Positions 11,930 through 53,993 of a DNA stretch of 59,148 bases are shown here, one piece after another. The notes beneath the pieces are model-generated. The model searched no databases, had not been told where the DNA came from, and saw only the letters and a program-made list of their open reading frames with translations. Location: contig JAAFHT010000006.1 in NCBI GenBank assembly GCA_013297625.1, forward strand, positions 1-59,148. Reading direction: 5' to 3'. The position numbers and the translations under genes are program-made. The stretch comes from Actinomycetota bacterium (lineage in GTDB: Bacteria > Actinomycetota > Actinomycetes > Actinomycetales > Microbacteriaceae). Positions within the stretch are counted from its first letter, which is position 1. The number at the start of each line of letters is the position of its first letter.

Positions 11930-12868
11930 TCAGAACCCGAGCTGCAGCACCATGAGCCCCGGCCAGACGGCGAAGAGCACCGTGACCGGCAGAATGAGGA
12001 ACACGAGCGGCACGAGCATGGCGACCTCGCGGGTTCCGGCGGCTTCGAGCAGGCGCCGCTTCGACTCGTCGCGCGCGTCGAGGGCGTGGGCGCGCAGCAC
12101 CTCGGCGAGTGGAGTTCCGCGGTCGAGAGCCGCGAGCACCTGGTCGATCAGCCGGCCGACGGCGGGCACGGCGAGGTCGTCGCGCAGCTCGGCGAGCGCA
12201 ACAGCGAGCGGCTGGCCCGCGGCGGTGCGCTGCACGACGCGGTCAAGCTCGCCCGCGAGCTCTCCCGACCCGGTGCGGGCAACGCGACGCAGAGCCTCAA
12301 GGATGCTTTCGCCGGCTGCCACGCTGAGGGCGAGAAACTCGACCACGGTCGGAAACTCTTCGGCGATGCGCGCCGAGCGTCGGCGGGCACTGCGCGCGAG
12401 CAGAGCATCCGTCGCCGCAATGCCGCCGATGCCACCCGCTGCCACCGCGCCGATCGCCGCCGGAACGAACGGCACGCCGTCACGCGCCACGAGCAGGGCG
12501 AGCGCGATGCCGGATGCCGCGCCGAGTAGCGCCCCGAACAGTTGCCGCGTGCGGTGGCCCTGAACGGTCAGCGCCGAGCCCGATTGCCGCAGGCGGGTGC
12601 GGATGCTCGCCTCACCCCCGAGCACGGTGTCGAGCATGCCGCGCGCGGCCTCGGCAGCGGGGGCAAGTAGGGCTCCGAGAACGGGCAGCGGGTCAGACCG
12701 CCGCGCAGAGGTCATGGCGCGCGCCTCAGCCGAAACATCGACGAGATACGGCGCGAGTCGGCTGGTCAACCGTGGGCGCCCCAGCCGGGGCGCGGTCGAC
12801 ACGAGCACCCACAGCCCCACCCCGAGTCCTAGGCCCGCGAGCACGGCGGCGCCGAGCAGCGGCGTCAT
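11930..12868 (-). CDS. tadC: TadC-type inner-membrane platform protein (type II secretion F domain)
   Basis: The product is 312 aa. It has an N-terminal helix (LLGAAVLAGLGLGVGLWVLV), a central helix pair and a C-terminal helix (LVPLVFLILPVTVLFAVWPG), with the T2SSF domain between (EEFPTVVEFLALSVAAGESI...ALRRVA). TadC with TadB forms the membrane platform on which the TadA ATPase drives pilus assembly. Its ATG overlaps the tadB stop (ATGA at 12865-12868). The longer open frame reaching 13069 is out of the tadB frame and is spurious. Confidence 0.88.
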   Translation of the reverse strand: MTPLLGAAVLAGLGLGVGLWVLVSTAPRLGRPRLTSRLAPYLVDVSAEARAMTSARRSDPLPVLGALLAPAAEAARGMLDTVLGGEASIRTRLRQSGSALTVQGHRTRQLFGALLGAASGIALALLVARDGVPFVPAAIGAVAAGGIGGIAATDALLARSARRRSARIAEEFPTVVEFLALSVAAGESILEALRRVARTGSGELAGELDRVVQRTAAGQPLAVALAELRDDLAVPAVGRLIDQVLAALDRGTPLAEVLRAHALDARDESKRRLLEAAGTREVAMLVPLVFLILPVTVLFAVWPGLMVLQLGF

Positions 12869-13728
12869 CGAAACCACCGCCCCTCTTCGGGCAAGCGACC
12901 GAGCGCGATCATCAACCGGTACGCCACAAGCGTGGCGGCGAGACCGCCCACGACGAGCACCGCACCGCCCGCCGAGTTGTAGGCAGCGGCGGCTTCGGGG
13001 CGGGTTCCGAGCATGAGCAGCACGATCCACGGGGCGACCACGCCGAGGCGCGCGGCGGTGCGCACCCACGACTGCCGGGCATCCACCTCGGCGCGCACCG
13101 CCGCGTCGGCTCGCAAGTAGTGCGAGAGCGAGCGCAGCACGCTGGGCAGCTCGGTGCCGCCGACCTCGCGCGCCATGCGAAGCGTCTCGACGATGCGATC
13201 GGCGACGGGGTCAGCGAGAGTCACCTTGAGCGAGTCGAGGCACTCGGTGAACTGCGCCGTGCGCAGATAGTCACGCCGAAAGGCTCGGAACGGCGCCCGC
13301 ACGGGCTCGGGCGCGGTGTCGGCAAGCGCGGCGATCGCTTGCGGCAAGCTCAGGCCCGCGCGCACGCCCGAGAGCAAGAGGTCGACGACGTCGGGCCACA
13401 CGGCCCGCAAAGCCCGCCGACGCGCGGCAGCGCGGGCGCACAGCACGAGCACGGGCACGGTTGCCGCCACCGCCGCCGCGACGGGCGCGAGCGCGACGAC
13501 TGGAACGAGCAGCAGCGTGAGGGCTCCCCCGGCCAACCCGGCGATCACGATGACCGCGACGAACACGAGGGGTGAGATGCTCGGCACCCCGGCGCGGGCG
13601 AGCAGGTCGGCCACGGGCGCGAGCGGGTCGCGGGCGCGGGCCCGGGCCTCCTCGCGGCGCGGCCACAGCCACGGCGACACCACAAGCAACACTCCCGCGG
13701 CGAGCAGCAGCCCGACAGCGAGCGTCAT
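12865..13728 (-). CDS. tadB: TadB-type inner-membrane platform protein
   Basis: This 287-aa protein has hydrophobic segments at the N-terminus (LAVGLLLAAGVLLVVSPW), two more in the region 50-100, and two at the C-terminus. The T2SSF domain is recognisable in VWPDVVDLLLSGVRAGLSLP and the following AREVGGTELPSVLRSLS. It pairs with TadC. The start overlaps the tadA stop by 4 nt, so tadA-tadB-tadC are translationally coupled in that order, the standard actinobacterial arrangement. Confidence 0.88.
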   Translation of the reverse strand: MTLAVGLLLAAGVLLVVSPWLWPRREEARARARDPLAPVADLLARAGVPSISPLVFVAVIVIAGLAGGALTLLLVPVVALAPVAAAVAATVPVLVLCARAAARRRALRAVWPDVVDLLLSGVRAGLSLPQAIAALADTAPEPVRAPFRAFRRDYLRTAQFTECLDSLKVTLADPVADRIVETLRMAREVGGTELPSVLRSLSHYLRADAAVRAEVDARQSWVRTAARLGVVAPWIVLLMLGTRPEAAAAYNSAGGAVLVVGGLAATLVAYRLMIALGRLPEEGRWFR

Positions 13729-15005
13729 GCGCGCACCCCACGACCCGTGCTCGCCGTGGCGCCCGCGGGCACATCCCGCTGCAACAGGATGCTCGGGTCA
13801 AGCCCCGCGCCCGCAAACCTCTCGGCGCGCGCGGGCAGGGTGCCCGTCGGCTCGAGCACTCCCTCGCGCACCACGAACAGCGACTCAGCCTCGATCGCCC
13901 CGGCAACCACCGAACCCGTCGGCGCGACGATCTCGGCCACCCGGCGCGAGCCGCCCTTCACAAGTTCGCAGTGCACGACGAGGTCAATCGCGCTCGCGAC
14001 GGTGGGCACCACAAACGCCGAGTCGATGTTGCGGCCCGCCAATAGTGGGAGGGTCGAGAGCTTGACGAGGGCATCCCGAGCGCTGTTGGCGTGGATGGAA
14101 CACATGCCCGGCAGCCCCGAGTTGAGAGCGATCAAGAGGTCGAGCGACTCGGCCTCGCGCACTTCGCCGACCACCAGGCGGTCGGGGCGCATCCGCAACG
14201 CCTCTTTGATGAGGCGGCGCAGAGTGATTTCGCCCGTGCCCTCGAGGTTGGGAGTGCGGCACTGCATCGCCACGACGTCACCCGCCGCGAGATCGAGCTC
14301 AAAGGTCTCCTCGACCGTGACAATGCGGTCGGCGGGGCGGGCGCTCGCGAGCATGGCGCCGAGCAGGGTCGTCTTACCCGAGTGCGTGGCACCGCTGACG
14401 AGGATGTTGCTGCCGGCGAGCACGCTCATGCGCAGAAACTCCGCCGCGAGTGGGGTGAGTGACCCGAGCTCGACCAAGCGCGCGAGGCTACCGATGCGCT
14501 GCGAGAACTTGCGCACGTTGACGGCCCAGTGCTGCCGCGTGACGTCGGGAATGACGACGTGCAAGCGCGAGCCATCGGGCAGGCTCGCGTCGACGAACGG
14601 ACTACTCAGATCAACCCGGCGGCCCGTGCTCTGCAGCATGCGCTCGACGAGGGTGCGCACCTGCTCGTCGGTGAGGCGAGCATCCACGCGCTCGGTGATT
14701 CCGGCGCGGGCAACGAAGACGGCGTCGGGAGCGTTGATCCAGATCTCTTCGACCTCGGCGTCATCGAAGTAGGGCTGCAGCGGGCCGTAGCCGGTGAGGT
14801 CGGCGAGCACGCGGCCGAGCGCCACCTGCTCGTCGCCGAGGCTCGGCAGGCTGCCAGCGAGTGAGCGCTCGGCATAGTCGCGCAACTCATCGCGCACGAG
14901 CCGCTCGACCGTGGTCGGGTCGGCACTCACGTCGAGGCGCTCGGCGCGCACACGCTCGCGCACACGCTCGGTAATGACGCTGTGGGCGGCAGACATGCGG
15001 GTCAT
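13725..15005 (-). CDS. tadA: TadA/CpaF-family pilus assembly ATPase
   Basis: The product is 426 aa. It is a secretion/pilus ATPase with Walker A GATHSGKTT at residues 205-213, a Walker B region RLVVGEVREAE and the His/Asp boxes typical of the VirB11-like TadA group. The N-terminal domain (LTGYGPLQPYFDDAEVEEIW) is also typical. It would form the hexameric motor for Tad pili. Two in-frame ATGs, 15005 and 14996, are equally possible; the far longer frame to 15311 runs back through the divergent ZIP gene and is rejected. A partition-like tadZ/ssd gene, usually upstream of tadA, is not found here; the neighbour is a divergent ZIP transporter. Confidence 0.9.
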   Translation of the reverse strand: MTRMSAAHSVITERVRERVRAERLDVSADPTTVERLVRDELRDYAERSLAGSLPSLGDEQVALGRVLADLTGYGPLQPYFDDAEVEEIWINAPDAVFVARAGITERVDARLTDEQVRTLVERMLQSTGRRVDLSSPFVDASLPDGSRLHVVIPDVTRQHWAVNVRKFSQRIGSLARLVELGSLTPLAAEFLRMSVLAGSNILVSGATHSGKTTLLGAMLASARPADRIVTVEETFELDLAAGDVVAMQCRTPNLEGTGEITLRRLIKEALRMRPDRLVVGEVREAESLDLLIALNSGLPGMCSIHANSARDALVKLSTLPLLAGRNIDSAFVVPTVASAIDLVVHCELVKGGSRRVAEIVAPTGSVVAGAIEAESLFVVREGVLEPTGTLPARAERFAGAGLDPSILLQRDVPAGATASTGRGVRA

Positions 15006-15096
15006 TCTGGTGAGGGGGCGCTGGGAGGGTGAGGGATTCTCCACAAGCCAATGCGTTCTAGGCTGAGCGGCGAACCCTGACCACCTGGAGGCGCGC

Positions 15097-15873
15097 ATGC
15101 TCGACGCACTGGCCGCCGGAGCCGTCGGGCTCGGCGCCGCGAGCTTTCTCGTCGTGGGTGCCGCCATCGGATGGTTCGTGCGCGTGCCGACCGGAGTGGT
15201 GGCGGGCATCATGGCGTTCGGCGCGGGCGCGCTCATCTCGACGCTCGCGTTCGAGCTCGTCGGCGAGGCGCACGAGGTCGGCGGGCTCGTGCCGACCATT
15301 GCCGGGTTCATCAGCGGTGCCGTGATCTATGTGCTGGCTGACCTCGCGCTCGCGCGCCGGGGAGCGCGAGCGCGCAAGCAGTCCATCGCTCTGCAGAGCG
15401 AGCCGGGGGTGCACGCGGCTCCGGCCGCCGCAGCCAGCGCGAGCGTTGGACTCGCTGTGGCCATTGGGGCACTGCTCGACGGGGTGCCCGAGAGCCTCGT
15501 GCTGGGGCTGTCGATTGCGCAGGGAGGCGTGGTGAGCATCCCGCTGCTCGTTGCGGTTGCCGTGTCGAACATTCCGGAAGGGCTCTCGAGCGCAGCGGGC
15601 ATGAAGCACGAGGGCCGCAGCGCCCGCTACGTGTTTGGCGTGTGGGGCGGCATTGCGCTGGTCTCGGGCGTTGCCGCGATGCTTGGCTTCGTGCTGCTCG
15701 CGACCGCACCACCCGAAGCCGTGGCCGCGGTCACGACCATCGCGGCGGGCGGCATTCTGGCGATGATCGCCAACACGATGATTCCCGAGGCTTTCGCGGC
15801 CGACCGCTCATTCACGGGGTTGTGGTCGGCACTCGGCTTTTCGCTCGCTTTTGCGCTCTACCAGCTCGGCTAG
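15097..15873 (+). CDS. ZIP-family metal transporter
   Basis: A 258-aa transporter with about seven to eight hydrophobic segments. The ZIP metal-binding helices are clear: DGVPESLVLGLS on one and VSNIPEGLSSA on the next, each with the conserved polar/acidic Pro-Glu pair used for Zn2+/Fe2+ coordination. The His-rich loop of many ZIPs is replaced by a basic Arg/Lys stretch (LARRGARARKQS). A CTGGAGG ribosome binding site precedes the ATG. Divergent from tadA; followed by a double hairpin before gabD. Likely imports divalent metal (Zn, Fe or Mn) into the cytoplasm; the metal is not predictable. Confidence 0.88.
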   Translation: MLDALAAGAVGLGAASFLVVGAAIGWFVRVPTGVVAGIMAFGAGALISTLAFELVGEAHEVGGLVPTIAGFISGAVIYVLADLALARRGARARKQSIALQSEPGVHAAPAAAASASVGLAVAIGALLDGVPESLVLGLSIAQGGVVSIPLLVAVAVSNIPEGLSSAAGMKHEGRSARYVFGVWGGIALVSGVAAMLGFVLLATAPPEAVAAVTTIAAGGILAMIANTMIPEAFAADRSFTGLWSALGFSLAFALYQLG

Positions 15874-15885
15874 TCAACGAAGAGA

Positions 15886-15923
15886 TCCGCTGCCGGGCGG
15901 CCACCACAGCGCCCGGCAGCGGA
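15886..15923. terminator. bidirectional hairpin between the ZIP gene and gabD
   Basis: A perfect 13-bp inverted repeat, CCGCTGCCGGGCG at 15887-15899 and CGCCCGGCAGCGG at 15910-15922, plus one more T-A pair outside, with a 10-nt loop. It lies between two convergent genes. There is no run of T on either side, so if it terminates it does so without a classic U-tract. Confidence 0.6.
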
Positions 15924-15930
15924 AGAGGAT

Positions 15931-15954
15931 GCCGTCGGGCTCACGCCCGACGGT
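15931..15954. terminator. second hairpin downstream of gabD
   Basis: A perfect 9-bp stem, CCGTCGGGC (15932-15940) and GCCCGACGG (15945-15953), with a 4-nt loop, 9 nt after the first hairpin and just before the gabD stop codon at 15961. Tandem hairpins between convergent genes suggest a strong two-way stop. Confidence 0.5.
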
Positions 15955-15960
15955 CACGAA

Positions 15961-17421
15961 CTAACTCTTTGGTACGAAGGTGTACTTCGTCGTGAGGTAT
16001 TCGTCAATGCCCTCGAGCGAGCCTTCGCGGCCGATGCCCGACTGCTTGACGCCACCGAAGGGCGCCGCAGCGTTCGAAATGACGCCCGCGTTGAGGCCCA
16101 TCATGCCCGTCTCGAGGCGGTCGATCATGCGCATGCCGCGGCCGAGGTCTTGCGTGTAGACGTAACTGATGAGCCCGTACTCGGTCGCGTTGGCGAGCTC
16201 GACGGCCTCGTCTTCGGTGTCGAAGGGAACGATCGCGAGCACGGGGCCGAAGATCTCTTCTGTCAGCAATCGCGTGCCGGTGGCAACGCCCGTGATGACC
16301 GTGGCCGGGTAGAAGTGGCCGGCGCCATCGGGAATCTGGCCGCCCGTCGTGACGGTGGCCCCGCGCGACACGGCATCCTGAACCAGCTCGTGTGAGCCCT
16401 TCACGGCGTTGTCGTCGACAAGCGGGCCGATCTGTACGCCGTCTTCGGTGCCGCGGCCCATCTTCATGGCGGCGACGCGCTCGGTGACGCGGCGGCTGAA
16501 CTCGTCGGCAACGTCACGCTGAACGAGGATGCGGTTGGCCGCCGTGCAGGCCTGGCCAATGTTGCGGAACTTGGCGAACATGACGCCGTCGATCGCCTTG
16601 TCGAGATCGGCATCGCCGAAGACGACGAAGGGGGCGTTGCCGCCGAGCTCCATCGAGGTACGCAGAATGCCGTCGGCGGCCTGCTTCATGAGCACGCGAC
16701 CCACCTCGGTCGAGCCCGTGAAGCTGAGCTTGCGCAAGCGCGGGTCGGCGATGATCTCGGCCGACAGCGCGCCCGACTTGGCGGTCGTCACGACGTTGAC
16801 CACGCCCTTGGGCAACCCAGCGTCTTCGAGCGTCTTGACGAAGTACATCGTCGTGAGCGGCGTGAGCGCAGCGGGCTTGATGATCGAGGTGCAGCCAGCC
16901 GCGATCGCGGGAGCGATCTTGCGGGTGGCCATGGCGAGCGGGAAGTTCCACGGGGTGATGAGGAACGACGGGCCGACGGGGGCGTGTGACACCACGATGG
17001 TTCCGGTGCCCTCGGGGTTCGAGCCGAAGCGCCCATTGATGCGCACGGCCTCTTCGCTGAACCAGCGCAAGAACTCGGCACCGTAGGTCACTTCACCGCG
17101 CGACTCAGCGAGGGGCTTGCCCATTTCGAGCGTCATGAGCAGAGCGAACTCGTCTGCGCGCTCGATGACGAGCTCCCACGCCTTGCGGAGCAACTCGCCC
17201 CGCACGCGAGGCGCGGTCGCGGCCCAGCTTGCCTGGGCGGCGGCCGCGGCATCCATCGCCTTCTTGGCGTCGGCAACCGAGGCACTCGCAATCTCAGCGA
17301 TCACGTTTCCGTTCGAGGGGTCGCTGACCGTCATGGTCGCGCCACCCTCTGCGTCGACCCACTGGCCGTCGATGTAAAGGCCGCGGGGAACCTTGGCGAG
17401 CAGTTCTGCTTCGGTGATCAT
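15961..17421 (-). CDS. gabD: NAD(P)-dependent succinate-semialdehyde dehydrogenase
   Basis: The product is 486 aa, the normal length. Catalytic Cys292 lies in NIGQACTAANRI, the general base Glu258 in SMELGGNAPF, and the NAD(P)-binding FTGSTEVG motif is intact. It oxidises succinate semialdehyde to succinate, completing GABA catabolism. An AAGGACT ribosome binding site precedes the ATG. It lies 46 nt downstream of gabT on the same strand, so gabT-gabD is likely one operon controlled from the gabT/pucR intergenic region. Confidence 0.92.
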   Translation of the reverse strand: MITEAELLAKVPRGLYIDGQWVDAEGGATMTVSDPSNGNVIAEIASASVADAKKAMDAAAAAQASWAATAPRVRGELLRKAWELVIERADEFALLMTLEMGKPLAESRGEVTYGAEFLRWFSEEAVRINGRFGSNPEGTGTIVVSHAPVGPSFLITPWNFPLAMATRKIAPAIAAGCTSIIKPAALTPLTTMYFVKTLEDAGLPKGVVNVVTTAKSGALSAEIIADPRLRKLSFTGSTEVGRVLMKQAADGILRTSMELGGNAPFVVFGDADLDKAIDGVMFAKFRNIGQACTAANRILVQRDVADEFSRRVTERVAAMKMGRGTEDGVQIGPLVDDNAVKGSHELVQDAVSRGATVTTGGQIPDGAGHFYPATVITGVATGTRLLTEEIFGPVLAIVPFDTEDEAVELANATEYGLISYVYTQDLGRGMRMIDRLETGMMGLNAGVISNAAAPFGGVKQSGIGREGSLEGIDEYLTTKYTFVPKS

Positions 17422-17467
17422 GAGAGTCCTTGAGTGAGTGGTGGCCGTGCTCAGTGAGGTCGCGGGT

Positions 17468-18820
17468 CTAGTTGGCGGCGAGCGCTTCAGCGATGACGCT
17501 GATGCCTTCGCGCAGCAGGTCGTCGCCGATCGAGAGCGGCGGCAGCAAGCGGATGACGTTGCCGTCGGTACCGCACGTGAGCACGATCACGCCGTTGACG
17601 TGGCAGTGCTTGGCGACCTTGCCGGTGAGCGCGGCGTCGGGCTTTCCGTTGGCGTCAACGAGCTCGATCGCCATCATGGCGCCGCGCCCGCGAATGTCGC
17701 CGATGCGGGCATCCGTCGACTGCAGGGCGGTGAGCTCGTGACGGATGATCCCCTCGAGCTCGAGCGCCCGCGCGAGCAGATCGTGCTCGTCGTAGGCCTG
17801 GAGTGCGCCGAGAGCCGCGGCAGTGGCGATGGGGTTGCCGCCGTAGGTGCCGCCGAGGCCGCCCGCGTGCGGAGCATCCATGATCTCGGCCTTGCCGGTG
17901 ACAGCCGCGAGCGGAAGCCCGCCCGCGATGCCCTTGGCGAGCGTGATGAGGTCGGGGACGACACCCTCGTGCTCGCTCGCGAACATCTGGCCCGTGCGCG
18001 CGAAGCCCGTCTGAACTTCGTCGGCGATGAAGACGACGTTGTTGGCGTTGGCCCACTTCTGCAGCGCGGGCAAGAAGCCCTCGGCGGGCACAACAAAGCC
18101 GCCCTCGCCCTGAATGGGCTCGATGATGATGGCCGCGATGCGGTCGACGCCGATCTGGCGGTCCATCATGTGGATCGCGCGCTCGGCCGCCTCAGCGCCA
18201 CTCAAGCCGTCGCGGTAGGGGTAAGACATGGGTGCGCGATACACGTCGGGCGCGAACGGACCGAAGCCCGCCTTGTAGGGCATGGCCTTGGCGGTGAGCG
18301 CCATCGTGAGGTTGGTGCGGCCGTGGTAGCCGTGGTCGAACGCGACAACCGCCGACTTGCCCGTGTAGTAGCGGGCGATCTTGATGGCGTTCTCGACGGC
18401 CTCGGCACCTGAGTTGAAGAGGGCAGTGCGCTTGGCGTGGTCGCCCGGCGTGAGGCGGTTGAGCGCCTCGGCCACCTCGACATAGCCGTCGTAGGGCGTG
18501 ATCGTGAAGCACGTGTGGGTGAAGCGCTGCACCTGCTCGATGACGGCCGCGGTGACATGCGGGTCGGCGTTGCCGACGTTCGTCACGGCGATGCCCGAGC
18601 CGAGGTCGATGAGCGAGTTGCCGTCGACGTCGACGATGACGCCACCGCCGGCAGCAGCCGCGTAGACGGGCATCATGGTGCCGACGCCGGCCGAAACGGC
18701 GGCCTGCTTGCGGGCAATGAGCGCTTCGCTCTTCGGGCCCGGGATGCTCGTCACGAGTCGACGTTCTTGCGGCAGGCTCGGCCCGCCCTGCAGCGTCGGG
18801 GCATCAATGGTCATGCTCAT
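17468..18820 (-). CDS. gabT: 4-aminobutyrate aminotransferase (class III, PLP-dependent)
   Basis: The product is 450 aa. It is a class III aminotransferase with [16 protein letters not shown], the EPIQGEGG segment, [13 protein letters not shown] (the Asp that contacts the PLP nitrogen) and the PLP-lysine in [12 protein letters not shown]. It moves the amino group of GABA to 2-oxoglutarate, giving succinate semialdehyde for the downstream GabD. Start at ATG 18820 (MSMTIDAP) is preferred because a TACTCT -10 box ends 6 nt before it; the open frame runs on to 18934 but crosses the promoter region. The regulator gene is divergent. Confidence 0.92.
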
Positions 18821-42538: not shown

Positions 42539-43906
42539 CTAGTTCTGCGCAACCGCCGTGAAAGCGCCGTCATATGCCTGCAAGGCGACTGCGACTTGCT
42601 CGGGAGTCACGATGCACGGCGGCACGACGTGAATGCGGTTGTCGGCCGCGAAGGGCAGCACCTTGCGCGCCATGAGCTCTGACTTGAGGCGGCCGATGAC
42701 GTCGGCACCCACGGGCTGGCGCGTGGCGCGGTCGGTTACGAGGTCGAGGGCCCAGAAAACGCCCAGCCCGCGCACCTCGCCGATCATGGAGTGCTTCTCG
42801 GCGAGCGCCCGCAGGCCGGGGCCGAGGTGCTTCTCGCCGATCATCGTGGCGTTCTCGACCACACCCTCGTCGGTCATCGCGTGAATCGAGGCGACGATCG
42901 ACGCCATGGCGAGCGGATGCCCGCTGTACGTGAGTCCGCCCGGAAAGATGCGGTCGTCGAAGGCCGCCGAGATGCTCGGGCTAATCACCACGCCACCCAC
43001 GGGCACGTAGCCCGAGTTGACGCCCTTGGCGAAAGCGATGAGGTCGGGGGCAACTCCCTCGGGGTTGACCGCGGCACCCTGCCAGGCGAACCACTCACCC
43101 GTTCGGCCGAAGCCGGCCATGACCTCGTCGGCGATCCAGACGATGCCGTACTTGTCGCACAGGGCGCGCACACCCGCGAGATACCCGGCGGGCGGGGTCA
43201 GTACCCCGGCGGTGCCCGGAACCGACTCGAGGAGAATCGCGGCGATGGTGCCGGGGCCTTCGGACACGATCGTGCGCTCGAGGTGCTGCAGCGCGCGCTC
43301 GCACTCTTGCTCGGGCGAGTCGGAGAAGAACTCGCTGCGGTAGGCGAAGGGGCCGAAGAAGTGCACGTGGCCGTAGGCGTATTCGTTGGGCATGCGCCGC
43401 CAGTCGCCCGTGGCGGCAATGGCCGCACCCGTGTTGCCGTGGTAGCTGCGGTAGGTCGAGAGCACCTTGTGCTTGTGGGTCGTGAGGCGCGCCATGCGAA
43501 TGGCGTTCTCGATCGCGTCGGCACCACCGTTGGTGAAGAAGACCTTGGCGAAGCCCGGTCCCGCTTTCTCGACGATGCGCTTCGCGGCCTCGCCGCGCGC
43601 GAGGTTCGCGTGCGAGGGGGCCACGGTGGCGAGCTCAGCGGCCTGCTTCTGAATCGCCGCAACGATCTTGGGGTGCGAGTGCCCAATGTTGGTGTTGACG
43701 AGCTGGCTCGAGAAGTCGAGGTAGGTCTCACCGTCGTAGGTGAAGACCTCGCAGCCCGCGGCGCTCGCCACGACAAAGGGGTTGAGAGCGCCCTGCGCGC
43801 TCCACGAGTGGAAAACGAACTCGCGGTCGAGGTCATAGGCGCGAACGCCATCGGCCGGGTCGTGAGCAGGGGCGGTAGAGAGTGACCGGTTCAGAATGTC
43901 GGTCAT
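42539..43906 (-). CDS. class III aminotransferase (aspartate aminotransferase family; beta-alanine/omega-transaminase type)
   Basis: The product is 455 aa. The class III features are FTNGGADAIENAIRMAR, STYRSYHGNTGAA, IADEVMAGFGRTGEWFAW and the PLP lysine in LIAFAKGVNSGYVPVG. The group includes beta-alanine:pyruvate and related omega-amino acid transaminases. Its neighbours to the right include a dihydropyrimidinase and a ureidopropionase-type amidohydrolase, whose end product beta-alanine would be a logical substrate. ATG 43906 has AAGGACT upstream; the open frame to 44344 runs through the divergent small gene and is rejected. Followed by a hairpin. Confidence 0.88.
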   Translation of the reverse strand: MTDILNRSLSTAPAHDPADGVRAYDLDREFVFHSWSAQGALNPFVVASAAGCEVFTYDGETYLDFSSQLVNTNIGHSHPKIVAAIQKQAAELATVAPSHANLARGEAAKRIVEKAGPGFAKVFFTNGGADAIENAIRMARLTTHKHKVLSTYRSYHGNTGAAIAATGDWRRMPNEYAYGHVHFFGPFAYRSEFFSDSPEQECERALQHLERTIVSEGPGTIAAILLESVPGTAGVLTPPAGYLAGVRALCDKYGIVWIADEVMAGFGRTGEWFAWQGAAVNPEGVAPDLIAFAKGVNSGYVPVGGVVISPSISAAFDDRIFPGGLTYSGHPLAMASIVASIHAMTDEGVVENATMIGEKHLGPGLRALAEKHSMIGEVRGLGVFWALDLVTDRATRQPVGADVIGRLKSELMARKVLPFAADNRIHVVPPCIVTPEQVAVALQAYDGAFTAVAQN

Positions 43907-44056: not shown

Positions 44057-44266
44057 ATGAGCGTCGTCATCCCTACCGTCGCAATACTCGGGTTCATGGT
44101 TTTCGCTGTGGTCTGGGCCGCGCTCGACCGAGCCAAGAACCGCGAGCAGGTTCGCGACGAGACTCTCCGTGTCGGGATGGCACCGAACGCCGAACCCGGT
44201 CGCGCAGCCACGCGCGCTCAAGGTGTAACGGCATGGGCTCGCAGGTCTGACTCGTCTGGTCTCTAG
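44057..44266 (+). CDS. small single-pass membrane protein, function unknown
   Basis: A 69-aa protein with one N-terminal hydrophobic helix (VIPTVAILGFMVFAVVWAAL) followed by a basic, hydrophilic tail. A -10 box and GAGG lie just upstream of the ATG, and the codon use is in keeping with neighbours. It converges on the photolyase-like gene with a 4-nt overlap. No family is recognised; the short length means it could still be non-coding. Confidence 0.5.
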   Translation: MSVVIPTVAILGFMVFAVVWAALDRAKNREQVRDETLRVGMAPNAEPGRAATRAQGVTAWARRSDSSGL

Positions 44267-45447
44267 AGCCTCAGTAGTGCCGGTATCTGCTCGCGGAACG
44301 GAAAAAAGCCGCGGGTGGCGTGCGGCCACGCGTGGGCATCCCACGGGCGCAGCACGCGCGTGAGCGTCACGCCCTCGGGGGCGAGGTCGCGCTCGAGGTG
44401 GTCGAGCGCATCGCGCACCGGGCCGATGGGCGCGTAGGGGGTCACGAGCTGGGTCACGGTGTGCACCTGAAGCCAGGGCAGAATCGCGGATGCCGTGATC
44501 CCGTCGAGCGCGCTAGCCTCCGCTGCGTAGTGCACGCCGGCTCGCTCGCGGCCATCGGCGAGCGCCCCGGCGACGAACTCGGCCACGAGCGGCGCGGAGC
44601 CCGGTCGCGACGTCGACCGCGGGCTCGCCACGGCCACGACCTCCGCGCCGCCCAGGTCGAGGCTCTCGGCGTGTAGGTCGTCGTCGTGCGCTAGAAGGGC
44701 GATGCGGCCGGTCGGCACCGGGTGCGGTCGCGGTGCCGGGCCGGGGGCGGGCAGCGGCGCGTCGTCGTCTACAGACGGAGCCACGGTCGCCAGCCCGCGC
44801 GGACTGAAGCGGCCCTCGGTGGCGAACTCGATGTTCTGCGTCGTGGCGAGGTAGGTCTTGCCGACCGTCTGCAGGCCCGCGACCCACCGCCAACTCAACG
44901 TGTTCGAGGCCGGGTCGCCATCGAGCAAGTGCCGCAGAAAGAAGTCGGCGCCGAGTTGCCAGGGCAGGCGCAGCGTGAAGATCCAGATGCTCGCGAACCA
45001 CATGCGCGCGTGGTTGTGCAGGTAGCCGGTGGTGACCAGCTCACGCGCCCAGTCGTCGAAGCCCTCGATGCCCGTTCGGCCGGCGATCGCGTCGTCGAAG
45101 GCAGCGCGCTCGGCGGCGCTCAACGCGTCGAGCGCCGGCGCCACCGCGGCGGTGTAGCGCGTCCACACGCTCGGCCGCAGTTCGAGCCAGCCCTTCCAGT
45201 AGGTGCGCCAGTAGACCTCTTGCACGAACTTGCCCGCCGCGTCGAGCGAGTGCCGCTGAAGAACGGCCTCGACGATCTCGCGCTCGGTCACGAGGCGGTG
45301 CCGCACCCAGGGCGAGAGGGTCGAGACGTTCGAGCGATCCCCCGGACCGCGGTCGGTGTTGCGTTCGGCCGCGTAGGCCCGCCCGGCGCGGGGAACAAAG
45401 TCGGCGAGCCGGGCCAGCCCTGCCGCGCGCGTGGGGTCGAACGTCAT
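44263..45447 (-). CDS. photolyase-like protein with the FAD domain first
   Basis: The product is 394 aa. The N-terminal 230 residues are a photolyase/cryptochrome FAD-binding helical domain: LSPWVRHRLVTEREIVEAVL, VQEVYWRTYWKGW, TGYLHNHARMWFASIW and LDGDPASNTLSWRWVAG, which carries the FAD contact Asp-Gly-Asp...Asn. There is no normal alpha/beta antenna domain in front of it. Instead a Rossmann-like domain follows the FAD domain (RIALLAHDDDLHAESLDLGG...LPWLQVHTVTQLVTPYAPIG), as if the two photolyase halves were swapped. ATG 45447 is chosen; an in-frame GTG is at 45465. Function may be light-driven repair or signalling. Confidence 0.82.
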   Translation of the reverse strand: MTFDPTRAAGLARLADFVPRAGRAYAAERNTDRGPGDRSNVSTLSPWVRHRLVTEREIVEAVLQRHSLDAAGKFVQEVYWRTYWKGWLELRPSVWTRYTAAVAPALDALSAAERAAFDDAIAGRTGIEGFDDWARELVTTGYLHNHARMWFASIWIFTLRLPWQLGADFFLRHLLDGDPASNTLSWRWVAGLQTVGKTYLATTQNIEFATEGRFSPRGLATVAPSVDDDAPLPAPGPAPRPHPVPTGRIALLAHDDDLHAESLDLGGAEVVAVASPRSTSRPGSAPLVAEFVAGALADGRERAGVHYAAEASALDGITASAILPWLQVHTVTQLVTPYAPIGPVRDALDHLERDLAPEGVTLTRVLRPWDAHAWPHATRGFFPFREQIPALLRL

Positions 45448-45510
45448 GCGCCCATCGTGCGCCACGGTGGCTGGGAGGGGGCGGGATGCTCAGCGCGAGC
45501 ATCCCGTGCC

Positions 45511-46527
45511 TCACACGCGCGCGGCCTTGTTGCCCTTCATCGCGGGGATGACGTGCTCGCCGTAGACGCGCAGCGTCTCTTCTTTGTTGTCGTGCTGCAG
45601 GTAGCCCGCGAACTGATCGACGCCGAGGTCGCGCAGGGCCTCGAGCTTTTCGATGTGTTCTTTCGCGGTGCCGAGCACGCAGAAGCGGTCGACGATCTCG
45701 TCGGGCACGAAGTCGACATGGTCGTTGCCGGCCTTGCCGTGGGTGTTGTAGTCGTAGCCCTGGCGGCCCGCGATGTAGTCGGTGAGCGCCTTCGGAACAT
45801 CGCTGCTCTCGCCGTGCTTGGCCACGATGTCGGCCACGTGGTTGCCGACCATGCCGCCGAACCAGCGGGTCTGGTTGCGCATGTGGTCCCAGTCGCTGCC
45901 GATGTACATGGGGGCCGCGACGCAGAACTTGATCGACATGGGGTCGCGCCCGACGTTGTCGGCCGCCGTTCGTACGGTCTCGATCATCCACTTCGCAATG
46001 TCGAGGTCGGCCAGCTGCAAGATGAAACCATCGCCCACCTCGCCCGTGAGCTTGAGGGCGAGCGGGCCATACGCGGCCACCCACACCTCGAGCTCGCTGC
46101 CGTGGCTCCACGGCAACTGCAGCATCGAGCCGTTGTACTCGACCGCCCGCGAGTTGCCGAGCTCACGAATGACGTGAATCGCCTCGCGCAACTCAGCGAG
46201 CGTCGTGGGCTTGCCGTTCGTCACCCGCACGGCGGAGTCGCCGCGGCCGATGCCGACGATCGTGCGATTGCCGTAGAGCTCGTTGAGCGTGGCGAAGACG
46301 CTCGCCGTGACCGTCCAGTCCCGCGTGGCGGGGTTGGTCACGAACGGCCCGACCGTGATGCGATGCGTCTCAGCGAGGATCTTCGAGTAGATGACGTAAG
46401 GCTCTTGCCACAGGATGTGGCTGTCGAAAGTCCACACGTGACTGAAGCCATACTGCTCAGCCAGCTTGGCGAGGTGCACCGTGCGGCTGGCGGGCGGGTT
46501 GGTCTGCAGAACAGCGCCGAAGTCCAT
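45511..46527 (-). CDS. LLM-class flavin/F420-dependent oxidoreductase
   Basis: The product is 338 aa. It is a luciferase-like TIM barrel: MDFGAVLQTNPPASRTVHLA, the bulge region FSHVWTFDSHIL, VGPFVTNPATRDW, IVGIGRGDSAVRV, and the C-terminal FCVLGTAKEHIEKLEALRDL. Such proteins use F420 or FMN to move hydride to or from organic substrates. It lies 28 nt downstream of the hydantoinase gene on the same strand, making it part of a catabolic operon 48880-45511. F420 synthesis genes begin 2.5 kb away, so F420 is the likely cofactor. It may reduce a pyrimidine or similar ring before hydrolysis; this is inference. Confidence 0.85.
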   Translation of the reverse strand: MDFGAVLQTNPPASRTVHLAKLAEQYGFSHVWTFDSHILWQEPYVIYSKILAETHRITVGPFVTNPATRDWTVTASVFATLNELYGNRTIVGIGRGDSAVRVTNGKPTTLAELREAIHVIRELGNSRAVEYNGSMLQLPWSHGSELEVWVAAYGPLALKLTGEVGDGFILQLADLDIAKWMIETVRTAADNVGRDPMSIKFCVAAPMYIGSDWDHMRNQTRWFGGMVGNHVADIVAKHGESSDVPKALTDYIAGRQGYDYNTHGKAGNDHVDFVPDEIVDRFCVLGTAKEHIEKLEALRDLGVDQFAGYLQHDNKEETLRVYGEHVIPAMKGNKAARV

Positions 46528-46555
46528 GGATGCTCGTCTCTCGTCTCTCGCGGGC

Positions 46556-48019
46556 TCAGACCAGGTACTGGCTCAGGCCGCGGCGCAAGTACTGCCCGTG
46601 CCCAGCCCGCCCGTGGAACTGGTCGTTCTGGATGACCACCGAACCCCGGCTGATGACCGTGTCGACCTTGCCGTCGATCTCGAAGCCCTCCCACGCCGCG
46701 TGGTCCATGTTCATGTGGTGCTTGCGGCCGGTCGGCTTGCCGTTCTCGTCAACGGGCATGCCGATCGAGGTGTGGCCGTTGGGGTCGTAGACCACGATGT
46801 CGGCGTCGGCTCCGGGCGCGATGACGCCCTTCTTGCCGTAGAGGCCGAACATGCGCGCGGGCGTGGTCGAGGTGATCTCGACCCAGCGCTCGAGCGTGAT
46901 CTGGCCGGTGACAACGCCCTGGTACATCAAGTCCATGCGGTGCTCGACCGAGCCGATGCCGTTGGGAATCTTCGAGAAGTCGCCGAGGCCGAGCTCTTTC
47001 TGGTCTTTCATGCAGAACGGGCAGTGGTCGGTCGAGACCATCTGAATGTCGTTCGTGCGCAGGCTCTGCCACATGTGGTCTTGGTGGCCCTCAGCGCGCG
47101 AGCGCAGCGGTGTCGAGCACACCCACTTGGCACCCTCGAAGGCTCCGTACTTTTCGCTCACCGCGCCCAGTTGCTCTTCAAGCGAGAGGTAGAGGTACTG
47201 CGGGCACGTCTCGCCGAACACGTTTTGGCCGATGTCGCGCGCGGCGGCGAGCTGCTCGACCGCTTGCTTGGCGCTTACGTGCACCACATAGAGCGGAGCA
47301 CCCGTGAGGTTCGCGAGCATGATCGCTCGGTGGGTCGCCTCTTCTTCCATTTGCCAGGCGCGCGCGACCCCGTGGTAGTACGGGTCGGTCTTGCCCTTGG
47401 CGAGCAACTGGGCGACGAGCACGTCGATGGCCGGGCCGTTCTCGGCGTGCATCATCGTCATGAGTCCGTGCTCGGCGGCCACCTGCATCGCGCGGAGAAT
47501 CTGCGCGTCATCGGCATAGAAGACGCCCGGGTAGGCCATGAACATCTTGTAGCTCGTGATGCCCTCGTCGATGAGCTTGGGCAGCGCGGCGAGCGAGTCG
47601 TCGTCGACGCCTCCCACGATCTGGTGGAACCCGTAGTCGATCGCGCAGTTGCCGCCGGCCTTCTCGTGCCACGCAGCGAGCCCGTCGAACACCTTCTGGC
47701 CCGCCGTCTGCACGGCGAAGTCGATGATGCTCGTCGTGCCGCCCCACGCGGCGGCGATCGTGCCCGTCTCGAAGGTGTCGACGGCAGCCGTGCCACCGAA
47801 CGGCAGCTCCATGTGGGTGTGGGCGTCAATGCCGCCCGGAATCACATACTTGCCCGAGGCATCGATGACCGCGTCGACGGATGCGGCCAGGTCGTGCCCG
47901 AGCAACGTCGAGCCCGGGGCGAGCACCGCCACAATCGTCTCGCCGTCAATCAAGACATCAGCCGCGCCGCGGCCCGTGGCCGACACAACCGTGCCGCCGG
48001 TGATGAGGGTGGTAGCCAT
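46556..48019 (-). CDS. hydA: dihydropyrimidinase / hydantoinase
   Basis: The product is 487 aa. Cyclic amidohydrolase features: metal-binding His-x-His at 67-69 (GIDAHTHMELPFGG), carbamylated Lys158 in GITSYKMFMAY, further His ligands in DYGFHQIVGG and YVVHVSAKQA, and the catalytic Asp in a STDHCPF region. It opens 5,6-dihydrouracil, dihydrothymine or 5-substituted hydantoins to N-carbamoyl amino acids. An AAGGAGAG ribosome binding site precedes the ATG. It sits between the amidohydrolase and the LLM oxidoreductase. Confidence 0.92.
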   Translation of the reverse strand: MATTLITGGTVVSATGRGAADVLIDGETIVAVLAPGSTLLGHDLAASVDAVIDASGKYVIPGGIDAHTHMELPFGGTAAVDTFETGTIAAAWGGTTSIIDFAVQTAGQKVFDGLAAWHEKAGGNCAIDYGFHQIVGGVDDDSLAALPKLIDEGITSYKMFMAYPGVFYADDAQILRAMQVAAEHGLMTMMHAENGPAIDVLVAQLLAKGKTDPYYHGVARAWQMEEEATHRAIMLANLTGAPLYVVHVSAKQAVEQLAAARDIGQNVFGETCPQYLYLSLEEQLGAVSEKYGAFEGAKWVCSTPLRSRAEGHQDHMWQSLRTNDIQMVSTDHCPFCMKDQKELGLGDFSKIPNGIGSVEHRMDLMYQGVVTGQITLERWVEITSTTPARMFGLYGKKGVIAPGADADIVVYDPNGHTSIGMPVDENGKPTGRKHHMNMDHAAWEGFEIDGKVDTVISRGSVVIQNDQFHGRAGHGQYLRRGLSQYLV

Positions 48020-48031
48020 TGTCGACTCTCC

Positions 48032-48880
48032 TTAGGGCTTGACCGTCGCGGTGTACGACTCGGGACGACGGTCGCGGTAGAACTGCCAGTTGTTGCGCAC
48101 CTCGCGAATGACGTCGAAGTCGATGTCGCGCACGACGATCTCGGTCTGGTCTTGGCTTGCGACGTCACCGACGTAGTTTCCGCGCGGGTCGACAAAGTAG
48201 CTCGACCCGTAGAACGTCACAGCGAGGTCGCCGAACTCGTCGCTCTCGGTGCCGATGCGGTTGTTGGCCGCGATGAAGTACTGGTTGGCGGCGGCCGCGG
48301 CGGGCTGTTCGAGCTCCCACAGGCGGTTCGAGAGGCCGGGCTTGGTCGCGCTCGGGTTGAACACGAGCTGGGCACCGTTGAGGCCGAGCTCGCGCCATCC
48401 TTCAGGGAAGTGGCGGTCGTAGCAGATGTACACCCCGACCTTGCCCACGGCCGTATCGAACACGGGGTAGCCGAGGTTTCCGGGGCGGAAATAGAACTTC
48501 TCCCAGAACCGGTCGAGGTTCGGGATGTGGTGCTTGCGGTACTTGCCGAGAACCGTGCCGTCAGCATCCACGACCACGGCGGTGTTGTAGTACACGCCGG
48601 GCATGTCTTCTTCGTAGATCGGGAGCACGATGACGAGCTTGAGTTCTTTCGCGAGCTTCGCGAAGCGCTGCACGATGGGGCCGTCGGCGGGCTCGGCGTA
48701 GTCGTAGTACTTGGCGTCTTCGATGATGCCGAAGTACGGGCCGTAGAAGAGTTCTTGGAAGCAGATGATCTGTGCACCGTCAGCAGCGGCATCGCGCGCG
48801 AACTGCTCGTGCTTGGCGATCATCGACTCTTTGTCGCCCGTCCAGGTGGTCTGGGTGATGGCGGCCCGAATAGTGGTCAT
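48032..48880 (-). CDS. nitrilase-superfamily amidohydrolase (beta-ureidopropionase / N-carbamoyl amino acid type)
   Basis: The product is 282 aa. The catalytic triad is Glu43 (FQELFYGPYF), Lys116 (KYRKHHIPNL) and Cys153 (ICYDRHFPEGWRELG), in the form typical of beta-ureidopropionases and D-carbamoylases. It would hydrolyse N-carbamoyl-beta-alanine or another carbamoyl amino acid, the product of the adjacent hydantoinase, to the amino acid plus CO2 and NH3. The ATG at 48880 gives the correct N-terminus; the open frame to 48955 is spurious. First gene of the operon, divergent from cofD. Confidence 0.9.
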   Translation of the reverse strand: MTTIRAAITQTTWTGDKESMIAKHEQFARDAAADGAQIICFQELFYGPYFGIIEDAKYYDYAEPADGPIVQRFAKLAKELKLVIVLPIYEEDMPGVYYNTAVVVDADGTVLGKYRKHHIPNLDRFWEKFYFRPGNLGYPVFDTAVGKVGVYICYDRHFPEGWRELGLNGAQLVFNPSATKPGLSNRLWELEQPAAAAANQYFIAANNRIGTESDEFGDLAVTFYGSSYFVDPRGNYVGDVASQDQTEIVVRDIDFDVIREVRNNWQFYRDRRPESYTATVKP

Positions 48881-49048: not shown

Positions 49049-50038
49049 ATGAGAATCGTCGTGCTCGCGGGTGGGGTCGGAGGCGCGCGTTTTGTGCGCG
49101 GGCTACGCGAAGCGGTGCGGCGCGCGCCCGCCGGGTCAGAGCTCGCCGACGCCTCGATTGACGTCATCGTCAACACGGGCGACGACTGGTGGCTCGCGGG
49201 CCTGCGCATCACGCCCGACCTCGACTCGATGCTGTACACGCTCTCCGGCCAGAACGACGAGGTGCGCGGCTGGGGTCGCGTGGGCGAGAGCGAACGCGTC
49301 TCGGGCGAGCTACAGGCCTATGGGGTGACTCCCGAGTGGTTCACGCTCGGCGACCTCGACCTCGGCACGCACATCGCGCGCTCGGCATGGCTGCGCGAAG
49401 GGCTCACGCCGTCTGACGTGGTCGCGCGGCTACACGACCGCTGGGATCTCGGCGGAGTACGCCTGCACCCCGCGACCGATCACGAGATCGACACCCACGT
49501 GTGGGTTGCGTCAGACACCGGGGCCGAAGAAGACATGCACTTTCAAGAGTGGTGGACGCGCTACCGCGCCCAAGTGCCCGCGCTGCGGTTTGAGCAGCGC
49601 GGGGTGGAGCGTGCGACTCCCTCCCCCGGCGCGCTTGCGGCTCTCTCGGCGGCCGACGTCGTGCTCATCGCGCCGTCGAACCCGGTGGTGTCGATTGGCA
49701 CGATTCTGGGCATCCCGGGCATGCGCGATGCCGTGCTCGCGGCGAATGCCCCGATCGTGGGTGTCTCGCCCATCATCGCCGGATCCGCCGTGCGCGGCAT
49801 GGCCGACGCGTGCCTCACGACGATCGGTGTGGCGACGGATGCCGCTGCGGTCGCCCGACACTACGGCTCCCGGTCTGAGGCAGGGCTGCTCGATGCGTGG
49901 CTCGTGGGCGTCGAAGACGAGTCGCTCGTGGCCGAGTTGCGCGCGGACGGCATCGCCGCCGCCGCGGTGCCTCTCTGGATGCGCGACCTCGACACCGCGG
50001 CCGCTCTCGCCGAAGCGACAGTCGAGGCTGCGCGCTAG
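49049..50038 (+). CDS. cofD: 2-phospho-L-lactate (phosphoenolpyruvyl) transferase, F420 biosynthesis
   Basis: The product is 329 aa, also called FbiA in actinobacteria. The N-terminal [20 protein letters not shown] and INTGDDWW-like ([19 protein letters not shown]) motifs, the middle [14 protein letters not shown] stretch and the C-terminal [14 protein letters not shown] and [14 protein letters not shown] are all CofD hallmarks. It joins Fo to the phospholactyl or phosphoenolpyruvyl guanylate product of CofC. ATG 49049 is chosen over the GTG at 49004. The other F420 genes fbiC and cofC lie 1.3 and 4.3 kb downstream; fbiB/cofE is not in the window. Confidence 0.93.
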
Positions 50039-51184: not shown

Positions 51185-51317
51185 CGGCGACCTGCGCGAG
51201 TAGGGTAGGCGCACAACGTGTTGCGCCCGGTCTGGGGTGCGGCGTGGCGCCACTCGTGAGGTGCCCGACCCGGCGGGTTCAGCGTGCCCGCCGTCGCTCG
51301 GCCTGCCAGGAGCATCC

Positions 51318-53993
51318 ATGACGGAGACCACCCCACAGAACACGCCCGTGCGCGCGACGGGCGCGCCGACCAGCACGACGGCGGGGTTTGTGCCCAGCGC
51401 GTCGGCGATCTCGCGCGCGCTCAAGCGGGCCGAGTCGGGCGTCACGCTCGACGCGACCGAAGCCGAGACGCTGCTGCACTGCCGGCATGACGACCTTGAG
51501 CGGCTGCTGACCGTCGCGAGCCGCGCTCGGGATGCGGGGCTCGAGAAAGCCGGACGCCCCGGCGTCATCACGTACTCACGCAAAGTGTTCATTCCGCTCA
51601 CGCACCTGTGCCGCGACCGCTGCCACTACTGCGTGTTCGTGCAGACCCCCAACCAGCTCGCCGCGCAGGGCAAAGCGCCCTTCCTCTCCCCCGACGAGGT
51701 GCTGGAGATTGCACGCGCGGGCGCCGCGCTCGGGTGCAAAGAGGCCCTCTTCACGCTCGGCGACCGGCCCGAAGACCGTTGGCCCGCCGCTCGTGAATGG
51801 CTCGACGCCCGCGGCTACGACTCGACGATCGACTACCTACGATCGGTCGCGATTCTCGTGCTCGAAGAGACCGGACTGTTGCCGCACCTCAACCCCGGCG
51901 TCATGACCTGGCAAGAACTGCAGCGGCTCAAACCCGTCGCTCCGAGCATGGGCATGATGCTCGAAACCACGAGCAAGCGGCTGTTCGAGACCCGCGGCCT
52001 CGCCCACTTCGGCAGCCCCGACAAAGACCCCGAGCTGCGCTTGCGGGTGCTCGAAGACGCCGGCCGCAGCGCCATCCCATTCACGACGGGCCTGCTGCTG
52101 GGCATCGGCGAGAACTACGCCGAACGCGTCGACGGCATGTTCGCGATTCGGGCAACCTCACGGCGGCACGGGCACGTGCAAGAGGTCATCATCCAGAACT
52201 TCCGCGCGAAGCCGCGTACGGCCATGCGCGCCACCGACGACCTCGCGCTGCAGGAGTACGTCGCGGCCGTCGCCGTCAGCCGCCTCGTACTCGGACCGAG
52301 CGCGCGCGTGCAAGCGCCGCCGAACCTCACCGACGCCGAAGAACTGGGCCTGCTGGTTCGCGCGGGCATCGACGACTGGGGCGGCGTGAGCCCGCTCACC
52401 CCCGACCACGTCAACCCCGAGCGCCCCTGGCCGCAGATCGACGAGCTCGCGCGCCTCACGAGCGAATCAGGGTTCACGCTGCGCGAGCGTCTGACCGCGC
52501 ATCCCCACTATGTGCGCGCGGAAGAACCGTGGCTCGACCCGCGCATCGTTCCGCACGTGCGGGCCCTGGCCGCAGCCGATGGGCTCGCAAATGAGGCAGC
52601 CGTGCTGCGGGGCATCCCGTGGCAAGAGCCCGACCCCGATTGGGCGAGCCGCGCCGGCACCGGGCGCACCGACTTGCACGTTGAGATCGACACCGAGGGT
52701 CGGCGCACCGAAACTCGCAGCGACTTCGACGACGTCTACGGCGACTGGGCCGAGCTGCGCGAAGCGACGAGCGGCGCTCGCGAGCGCACCGTCGCCGTGA
52801 GTACGGGCGTCGCGGCGGTGCTGCGTCGGGCCGAGGATGCCCCCGCCGGCTTGAGCGACGACGACTACCTGACCCTGCTGCAGGCCGACGGCGCCGACCT
52901 CGACGCGCTCGCCGACCTCGCTGACCGAGTGCGACGCGACACCGTGGGAGACGAGATCGGCTACGTCGTCAACCGCAACATCAACTTCACGAACGTCTGT
53001 TACACGGGCTGCCGGTTCTGCGCGTTCGCCCAACGGCGCACCGATGCTGATGCCTTCACGCTGTCGATGCAGCAGGTCGGCGACCGGGTCGATGAGGCGT
53101 GGGCGCTCGGGGCGACCGAGATTTGCATGCAAGGCGGAATCCACCCCGACCTGCCCGGAACGGCCTACTTCGACCTTGCGCGCGAAGTGAAGAAGCGCCA
53201 GCCGGGCATTCACTTGCACGCGTTTAGTCCGATGGAAATCGTGAACGGAGCATCCCGAACCGGGTTGTCGTTCGCCGACTTCTTGACTGCGGCGAAAGAG
53301 GCGGGGCTCGACACGATTCCGGGCACGGCCGCCGAGATTCTCGACGACGAGGTGCGGTGGGTGCTGACGAAGGGCAAGCTGCCCGCCGCCGAGTGGATCG
53401 AGATTGTCAGCACCGCGCATCGCCTGGGCATTCGGTCGTCGAGCACGATGATGTACGGGCACGTGGATGCTCCCCACCACTGGGTCGGCCACCTGCGCAC
53501 CCTCGCGCGCGTGCAAGACGAGACCGGAGGTTTCACCGAGTTCGTGCTGCTGCCGTTCGTGCACGCGAGCTCGCCTGTGTACCTCGCGGGCGTGGCGCGA
53601 CCCGGCCCGACGCCGCAAGAGAACCGTGCGGTGCACGCGGTCGCACGTCTGATGTTGCACGGCCGCATCGATCACGTGCAGACCTCGTGGGTGAAGCTCG
53701 GCACCGAGGGCACACAGCTCATGCTGCGCGGCGGGGCCGACGACGTGGGCGGCACGCTCATGGAAGAGACGATCAGCCGCATGGCGGGCGCCGACAACGG
53801 TTCTGAGAAAACGGTCGCTGAGCTCGAAGAACTGGCGAGTTCGATCGGACGCGTCGCGCGCCAGCGCACGACGACCTACGGAACGCCCGACCCAGAACGC
53901 GTCGCGGTCGCCCAGTCGCACCGAACCGAGGGCTACGCGGCCACGGGCCGGCGGCTCTCGCTCACGGTCGCCGAGGTGCGCTCGGGCTCGTGA
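51318..53993 (+). CDS. fbiC: 7,8-didemethyl-8-hydroxy-5-deazariboflavin (Fo) synthase, fused CofG-CofH
   Basis: The product is 891 aa and is a fusion of two radical-SAM enzymes. The CofG half has the CxxxCxxC cluster Cys98, Cys102, Cys105 ([12 protein letters not shown]). The CofH half has Cys561, Cys565, Cys568 ([11 protein letters not shown]). Each binds [4Fe-4S] and SAM; together they make Fo, the F420 chromophore, from 5-amino-6-ribitylaminouracil and tyrosine. AGGAG lies 6 nt upstream of ATG 51318; the frame extends to 51237 without support. The gene is followed by a 354-nt gap with a palindrome and a long inverted repeat. Confidence 0.96.

Follow-up and report, generated by a model that had tools for sequence, protein, structure and literature searches.

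In the known Pyd-type systems for the reductive breakdown of uracil and thymine, the ring is reduced by PydA, PreTA or DPYD, a flavin and iron-sulfur reductase of the dihydroorotate dehydrogenase (DHODH) type, and the product is processed with the help of a dihydropyrimidinase, a carbamoyl hydrolase, a transaminase, a semialdehyde dehydrogenase and transporters. Here we describe an operon at positions 45511–48880 of a 59,148 bp stretch of DNA (hereafter the window; contig JAAFHT010000006.1, positions 1 to 59,148) from a member of the Microbacteriaceae, Actinomycetota (assembly GCA_013297625.1). Clusters of its kind hold the same downstream genes as the Pyd systems, but no DHODH-type reductase was found, and in its place there is an enzyme with the fold of the luciferase-like monooxygenases (LLM), a member of family TIGR03842 that is probably dependent on the cofactor F420. 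The operon is likely to be the core of a reductive uracil and thymine degradation pathway in which an F420H2-dependent LLM replaces PydA. The genomic evidence that an F420-type LLM does the job of the missing first enzyme is strong, and the activity of the LLM itself, a probable one, is predicted; we infer that it is a non-homologous replacement of PydA/PreTA.

Variations on the first step have been described elsewhere. Clostridium chromiireducens is reported to have a ferredoxin-dependent PydA (PMC7332683); this is likewise a Pyd variant with a changed electron donor, but its enzyme is still a PydA homologue, whereas in the window's cluster the fold of the enzyme itself differs. In uric acid clusters of Chloroflexota a putative luciferase-family F420 reductase has been proposed from gene context to replace YgfK/UacX (PMC12507026). 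There, too, a proposed F420-dependent LLM takes the place of a PydA-like/YgfK reductase beside ring-opening hydrolases, but the substrate is purine-derived (yanthine) and the phylum is a different one. The operon can be read as a known pathway in a new form, and the Chloroflexota proposal is its published counterpart on the purine side. TIGR03842 (F420_CPS_4043) is an NCBIfam hypothetical equivalog of which the window's LLM is a clear member; the entry names no substrate, and one is proposed from the present analysis. Our literature searches found no paper with TIGR03842 or CPS_4043, although this context may have been mentioned before, and none that joins F420 and pyrimidine catabolism; searches on F420 with hydantoinases or luciferase-like monooxygenases, and on actinobacterial pyrimidine degradation or PydA, returned nothing on this cluster.

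The operon consists of three minus-strand genes that fill the interval exactly, and the composition given by an earlier sequence-only reading–amidohydrolase, hydantoinase and LLM oxidoreductase–holds up with more specific assignments. The LLM gene (45511–46527) encodes a protein scoring 581 bits against TIGR03842 (cut-off 295), with the F420-dependent Mer enzymes as its nearest solved structures. It is separated by 28 bp from a dihydropyrimidinase gene of the PydB/HydA type (46556–48019; TIGR02033, 523 bits, cut-off 393), whose closest PDB chains are D-hydantoinases and dihydropyrimidinases, and this in turn by 12 bp from a CN-hydrolase gene (48032–48880, with its ATG at 48880). The CN-hydrolase belongs to the nitrilase superfamily (PF00795, 218 bits) and is a probable beta-ureidopropionase; it falls under the curated cut-off for N-carbamoylputrescine amidase (TIGR03381, 254 vs 410 bits), and N-carbamoylputrescine amidases and beta-ureidopropionases score about equally with it among solved structures.

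The genes on either side of the operon are also where they had been placed. F420 biosynthesis genes, described as lying 0.2 kb beyond it, begin with a divergent plus-strand cofD (2-phospho-L-lactate transferase; 49049–50038; TIGR01819, 312 bits, cut-off 257) that starts 0.17 kb beyond the CN-hydrolase start, followed on the same strand by fbiC (bifunctional FO synthase CofG-CofH; 51237–53993; PRK09234, 1459 bits, cut-off 1018), the true start of which may be downstream of 51237. The expected transaminase is a minus-strand class-III aminotransferase gene (42539–43906), with a likely ATG, by inspection, at about 43906, 1.6 kb downstream of the end of the LLM gene. Its product is probably a beta-alanine/beta-aminoisobutyrate transaminase, a specificity we infer, and scores 706 bits (cut-off 472) against PRK06062 (NF004718), a model described only as hypothetical protein. 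The genome carries fbiC, cofD, cofE, an F420-glucose-6-phosphate dehydrogenase and a (methyl)malonate-semialdehyde dehydrogenase, each above its curated cut-off; the last of these (TIGR01722, 698 bits, cut-off 449) is encoded outside the window. The closest LLM proteins among the matches listed are from Micrococcales bacterium 32-70-13 (94% identity) and two Microcella records (93% and 92%), which suggests that the host is a Microcella-like representative of its family.

As the sequence-only reading had it, there is no dihydropyrimidine dehydrogenase gene within the operon. That reading had named a conventional dihydropyrimidine dehydrogenase in the genome as grounds for doubt and had suggested a check for preTA-type genes elsewhere, and neither turned up. 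A scan of the genome (97% complete) with PF01180, the family model for PydA, PreA and dihydroorotate dehydrogenases, found no PydA/PreA-type reductase: the single match is a quinone-dependent PyrD (NF003648, 511 bits, cut-off 433), and the PreA model is absent from the match list of this protein at E 1e-20, whereas E. coli PreA scores 688. More broadly, the PreA model has no match at E 1e-60 in any of 295 genomes of the class, the E. coli and Deinobacterium controls (among 14) being positive, and with E. coli preTA as references no PreA or PreT match lies closer than 10 kb to the LLM gene at any of 140 loci.

These 140 loci (137 distinct, as three occur in two samples) were drawn from Actinomycetota in four samples: a closest-match sample of the best 80 of at least 583 confirmed matches, a family sample (20 of 27 positive family genomes), a class sample (20 of 90 positive genomes, picked to spread over families) and a phylum sample (20 of 60 positive genomes outside the class). 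Neighbours up to 10 kb from the LLM gene were sought by phmmer at E 1e-10; the reference proteins came from the window, from Leisingera and further loci, and from E. coli (preTA). A dihydropyrimidinase and a carbamoyl hydrolase are both present in 133 of the 140 loci (79/80 closest-match, 20/20 family, 18/20 class and 16/20 phylum), and both are on the LLM strand in 79, 20, 18 and 13 loci, respectively; on these counts, the arrangement of the operon is far beyond chance. Taking the samples in the same order, an NMT1/THI5-type or NCS1 transporter is found in 61/80, 16/20, 12/20 and 12/20 loci, a (methyl)malonate-semialdehyde dehydrogenase of at least 400 bits in 30/80, 4/20, 6/20 and 5/20, a class-III transaminase of at least 250 bits in 58/80, 19/20, 7/20 and 2/20, and cofD in 36/80, 11/20, 0/20 and 0/20. 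Replacing E 1e-10 alone with score thresholds lowered the counts for the semialdehyde dehydrogenase from 7 to 5 (phylum), for the transaminase from 11 to 7 and from 11 to 2, and for the transporters from 62 to 61, and a 350-bit cut on the LLM excludes loci L022 and L023. In five loci (L130, L133, L143, L144 and L146) the semialdehyde dehydrogenase gene lies between the dihydropyrimidinase and LLM genes, and in L098 and five phylum loci a Zn-dependent hydrolase replaces or accompanies the CN-hydrolase. The transporters, transaminases and semialdehyde dehydrogenases near the LLM gene point to uracil and thymine as the substrates.

The distribution of TIGR03842 follows that of F420 biosynthesis. 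Of 295 genomes of the class, all at least 95% complete, 90 have TIGR03842 above its cut-off and 249 have cofD at E 1e-15 (244 above cut-off), and all 90 TIGR03842-positive genomes carry cofD (hypergeometric 9e-9, not corrected for phylogeny). In the 60 genomes of the family set, TIGR03842 and cofD are above cut-off in 27 and 28, respectively, and both in 23. Strong cofE matches (E 3.2e-48 or lower) are present in 33 of the 60, including all 27 that are TIGR03842-positive, and TIGR03842 is above cut-off in none of the 27 family genomes without strong cofE. Homologs of the LLM in organisms without F420, which the sequence-only reading would have counted against itself, are thus not seen by cofD in the class or by cofE in the family, with the caveat that CofH, one half of FO synthase, is undetected in 14 of the 27 positive family genomes. 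We note as a separate matter that both cofE and cofD are far commoner in the family than CofH, which is detected in 14/60 genomes, although fbiC is present in the window's genome. FO may therefore be scavenged, or made by an unrecognised FO synthase, in many of the family members that have F420 genes; our literature searches on FO synthase loss in Microbacteriaceae gave nothing relevant.

The predicted structure of the LLM is consistent with an F420 enzyme. Its AlphaFold model has a mean predicted local distance difference test score (pLDDT) of 84 and a predicted template modelling score (pTM) of 0.87, with low-confidence loops at residues 37–40 and 264–268. The top Foldseek match is Mer (methylene-tetrahydromethanopterin reductase) with F420 (8qpl; template modelling score 0.79, 26% identity), and ranks 1–14 are all F420 enzymes, comprising Mer, FGD1/FGD2 and F420 alcohol dehydrogenase; the flavin mononucleotide (FMN) enzyme SfnG is at rank 15, above some F420 glucose-6-phosphate dehydrogenase chains. 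The LLM is under the Mer cut-off (TIGR03555, 139 vs 349 bits), and the gene context is unrelated to one-carbon (C1) metabolism. In Mer, according to PMC11094777, Glu6 is the catalytic proton donor, Asp96 touches the pterin at its pyrimidine ring, and the residue at 178 is a carboxamide close to both F420 and pterin, the ternary complex itself being a model; position 178 is Gln in that account and Asn in the aligned sequence, both of them carboxamides. These three positions align with LLM residues 6, 97 and 171. Over 146 aligned rows, in which some genomes are represented twice, Asp97 and Gln171 are invariant (146/146) and Cys283 is nearly so (145/146), while residue 6 is Val in 131, Thr in nine, Cys in five and a gap in one, and never Glu in the 145 rows with a residue. 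Because of the invariance of Asp97 and Gln171 and the absence of Glu at residue 6, the LLM appears to retain a portion of the Mer pocket that faces the pyrimidine and to have lost the catalytic acid of Mer.

In the pathway that we propose, the TIGR03842 LLM would reduce uracil or thymine to dihydrouracil or dihydrothymine, with F420H2 as the hydride donor. Dihydropyrimidine dehydrogenase delivers the hydride to C6 and a proton to C5, and by analogy the LLM would reduce the ring at C6 with protonation at C5. The dihydropyrimidinase would open the reduced ring and the CN-hydrolase would strip the carbamoyl group to release beta-alanine or beta-aminoisobutyrate, as judged from family membership, the exact specificity of the CN-hydrolase being putative. 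The class-III transaminase would then form the semialdehyde of malonate or of methylmalonate, to be converted to acetyl-CoA or propionyl-CoA by the CoA-acylating semialdehyde dehydrogenase, whose gene lies elsewhere in the genome. The sequence-only reading had left the choice between pyrimidines and hydantoins undecided; the pyrimidine half gains from the partner genes, (methyl)malonate-semialdehyde dehydrogenase among them, and the hydantoin half is the less supported of the two, as the end steps acting on beta-amino acids favour uracil and thymine.

Several other roles can be considered for the LLM: a part in hydantoin catabolism, or that of an oxygenase like RutA, of a C1 reductase like Mer or of a late semialdehyde reductase. 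All were rated below an F420H2-dependent uracil/thymine reductase. RutA is a uracil enzyme with the LLM fold, and the FMN enzymes that share this fold include SfnG at Foldseek rank 15, so an FMN-dependent, RutA-like monooxygenase that opens uracil oxidatively could be imagined here; it is very improbable, however, because the 14 best-ranked folds are F420 enzymes, the best models among the 25 NCBIfam matches of the LLM at E 0.001 are F420 families with the RutA model not among them, dihydropyrimidinase requires a reduced ring, and TIGR03842 co-occurs with F420 genes. It is unlikely that hydantoins or other cyclic ureides are what the cluster breaks down, with another compound of such a route as the substrate of the LLM, even though dihydropyrimidinases and hydantoinases form one family and some clusters (L098 and the five phylum loci) use Zn-dependent amidases of the hydantoinase/carbamoylase type. 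The transaminases and semialdehyde dehydrogenases of many clusters fit beta-amino acids rather than the alpha-amino acids derived from hydantoins, and the permease of the Leisingera islands described below is an NCS1 nucleobase symporter.

Since an alcohol dehydrogenase and sugar-phosphate dehydrogenases are among the F420-dependent LLM enzymes, the LLM might instead act late, for example as a malonate-semialdehyde reductase, with uracil reduced by an unrecognised enzyme elsewhere. We give this only a small chance, as the searches described above found no PydA/PreA candidate in the genome and no PreA in the 295 class genomes, a semialdehyde dehydrogenase is already present in many clusters, and Mer, the nearest relative, acts by reducing the C1 unit borne by a pterin and not a carbonyl (PMC11094777). 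It is harder still to credit that TIGR03842 is a generic F420 enzyme, such as a folate or pterin reductase, beside coincidental neighbours: Mer is indeed the closest solved relative and a few TIGR03842 genes have no partners, but the partners recur in 133/140 loci, where their gene order varies and some are exchanged for non-homologous proteins, and none of the 145 rows that have a residue at the position of Mer's catalytic Glu6 keeps the Glu.

An F420H2-dependent reduction of uracil and thymine must itself be weighed against several observations that do not favour it. The closest-match sample is biased to close relatives, and the co-occurrence counts carry no correction for phylogeny. Strong transaminase matches are few beyond the relatives of the window, and F420 genes adjoin the cluster only in part of those relatives and in alphaproteobacterial islands, with cofD in 0/40 of the class and phylum loci. 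No dihydropyrimidinase lies within 10 kb in L128, L151, L153, L156 and L161 (the last on a short contig), and L128 and L153 lack a carbamoyl hydrolase in this range as well; the hydrolase is also missing within 10 kb at L068 and L136, both on short contigs. Four of the 27 TIGR03842-positive family genomes have no intact cofD–it is split in two pieces in G009, and none was found in G002, G022 and G041–and all four keep cofE. With CofH detected in 13 of the 27, the F420 link is weaker in the 14 others, and F420 supply is unproven in those family genomes where intact cofD or CofH is missing. Lastly, no dihydropyrimidinase is annotated in the two Paracoccus island stretches that were read (see below).

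Related islands occur on plasmids of Alphaproteobacteria, where, according to a review (PMC8498797), F420 has been detected in trace amounts in two species and has a minor or niche role. We compared two TIGR03842 proteins by tblastn to 72,556 plasmid records, from which alone the Alphaproteobacteria were covered, and found full-length TIGR03842-annotated copies in ten Leisingera records and one Paracoccus record; a Caballeronia record has a fragment, and a Streptomyces record a copy with the triad. In two Leisingera records one arm of the island contains an NCS1 symporter, a dihydropyrimidinase, a Zn-dependent hydrolase, a transaminase and a transhydrogenase, and the divergent arm contains cofG, cofH, cofD, cofC, cofE, npdG and TIGR03842. 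Against the TIGR03842 model the Leisingera LLM reaches 506 bits. The Zn-dependent hydrolase, which sits in the place of the CN-hydrolase, is an amidase of the hydantoinase/carbamoylase family (TIGR01879, 401 bits, cut-off 204). The Paracoccus island has cofGHDCE, npdG, TIGR03842 and an ATP-binding cassette (ABC) transporter, with an NMT1 match of 68 bits only. In the plasmid set, cofD alone is present in 39 records, and most plasmid F420 islands are therefore without TIGR03842.

Taken more broadly, TIGR03842 may well constitute a new, non-homologous class of dihydropyrimidine dehydrogenase run by F420H2 and the main reductive entry to uracil and thymine breakdown in Actinomycetota, with the F420 gene set, an NADPH:F420 reductase and a transhydrogenase travelling along in some Alphaproteobacteria (Leisingera plasmids), where F420 would have been acquired for pyrimidine use; we favour this wider proposal with less confidence than the assignment of the operon. 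If true, TIGR03842, a widespread family to which no substrate has been assigned, would gain a function, and the reductive breakdown of pyrimidines in Actinomycetota would gain its missing first step. Dihydropyrimidine dehydrogenation would then have one more electron donor and a second protein fold, and Alphaproteobacteria would have one concrete role for F420.

Other features of the window and of individual loci are as follows. Between the LLM and transaminase genes the window has no transporter, and the space is occupied by a minus-strand photolyase-FAD-domain-like gene (44263–45465), whose product covers part of the FAD-binding domain (PF03441, 78 bits, over residues 80–220 of 400). Besides the window's own copy (L018), homologues are present among the loci examined only in the close relatives L045 and L047, and the gene is probably outside the pathway. 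L128 (genome G082) encodes a clear TIGR03842 protein (9449–10431, minus strand; 504 bits), with no partner gene found in its 20 kb. At L098, in Arthrobacter sp. MYb23, genes for a dihydropyrimidinase, TIGR03842, the Zn-dependent hydrolase, a second LLM, cofD, cofE and fbiC are all on one strand (8251–17974). NAD(P) transhydrogenase genes adjoin the CN-hydrolase, dihydropyrimidinase and LLM triad at L140 (genome G289), as in the Leisingera islands, which hints at a supply of F420H2 from NADPH. In three loci from other classes of the phylum (L160, L163 and L169), TIGR03842 adjoins the Zn-dependent hydrolase gene, and a different dihydropyrimidinase and an NMT1-type ABC transporter are encoded on the opposite strand, in what looks like an independent arrangement of the same parts.

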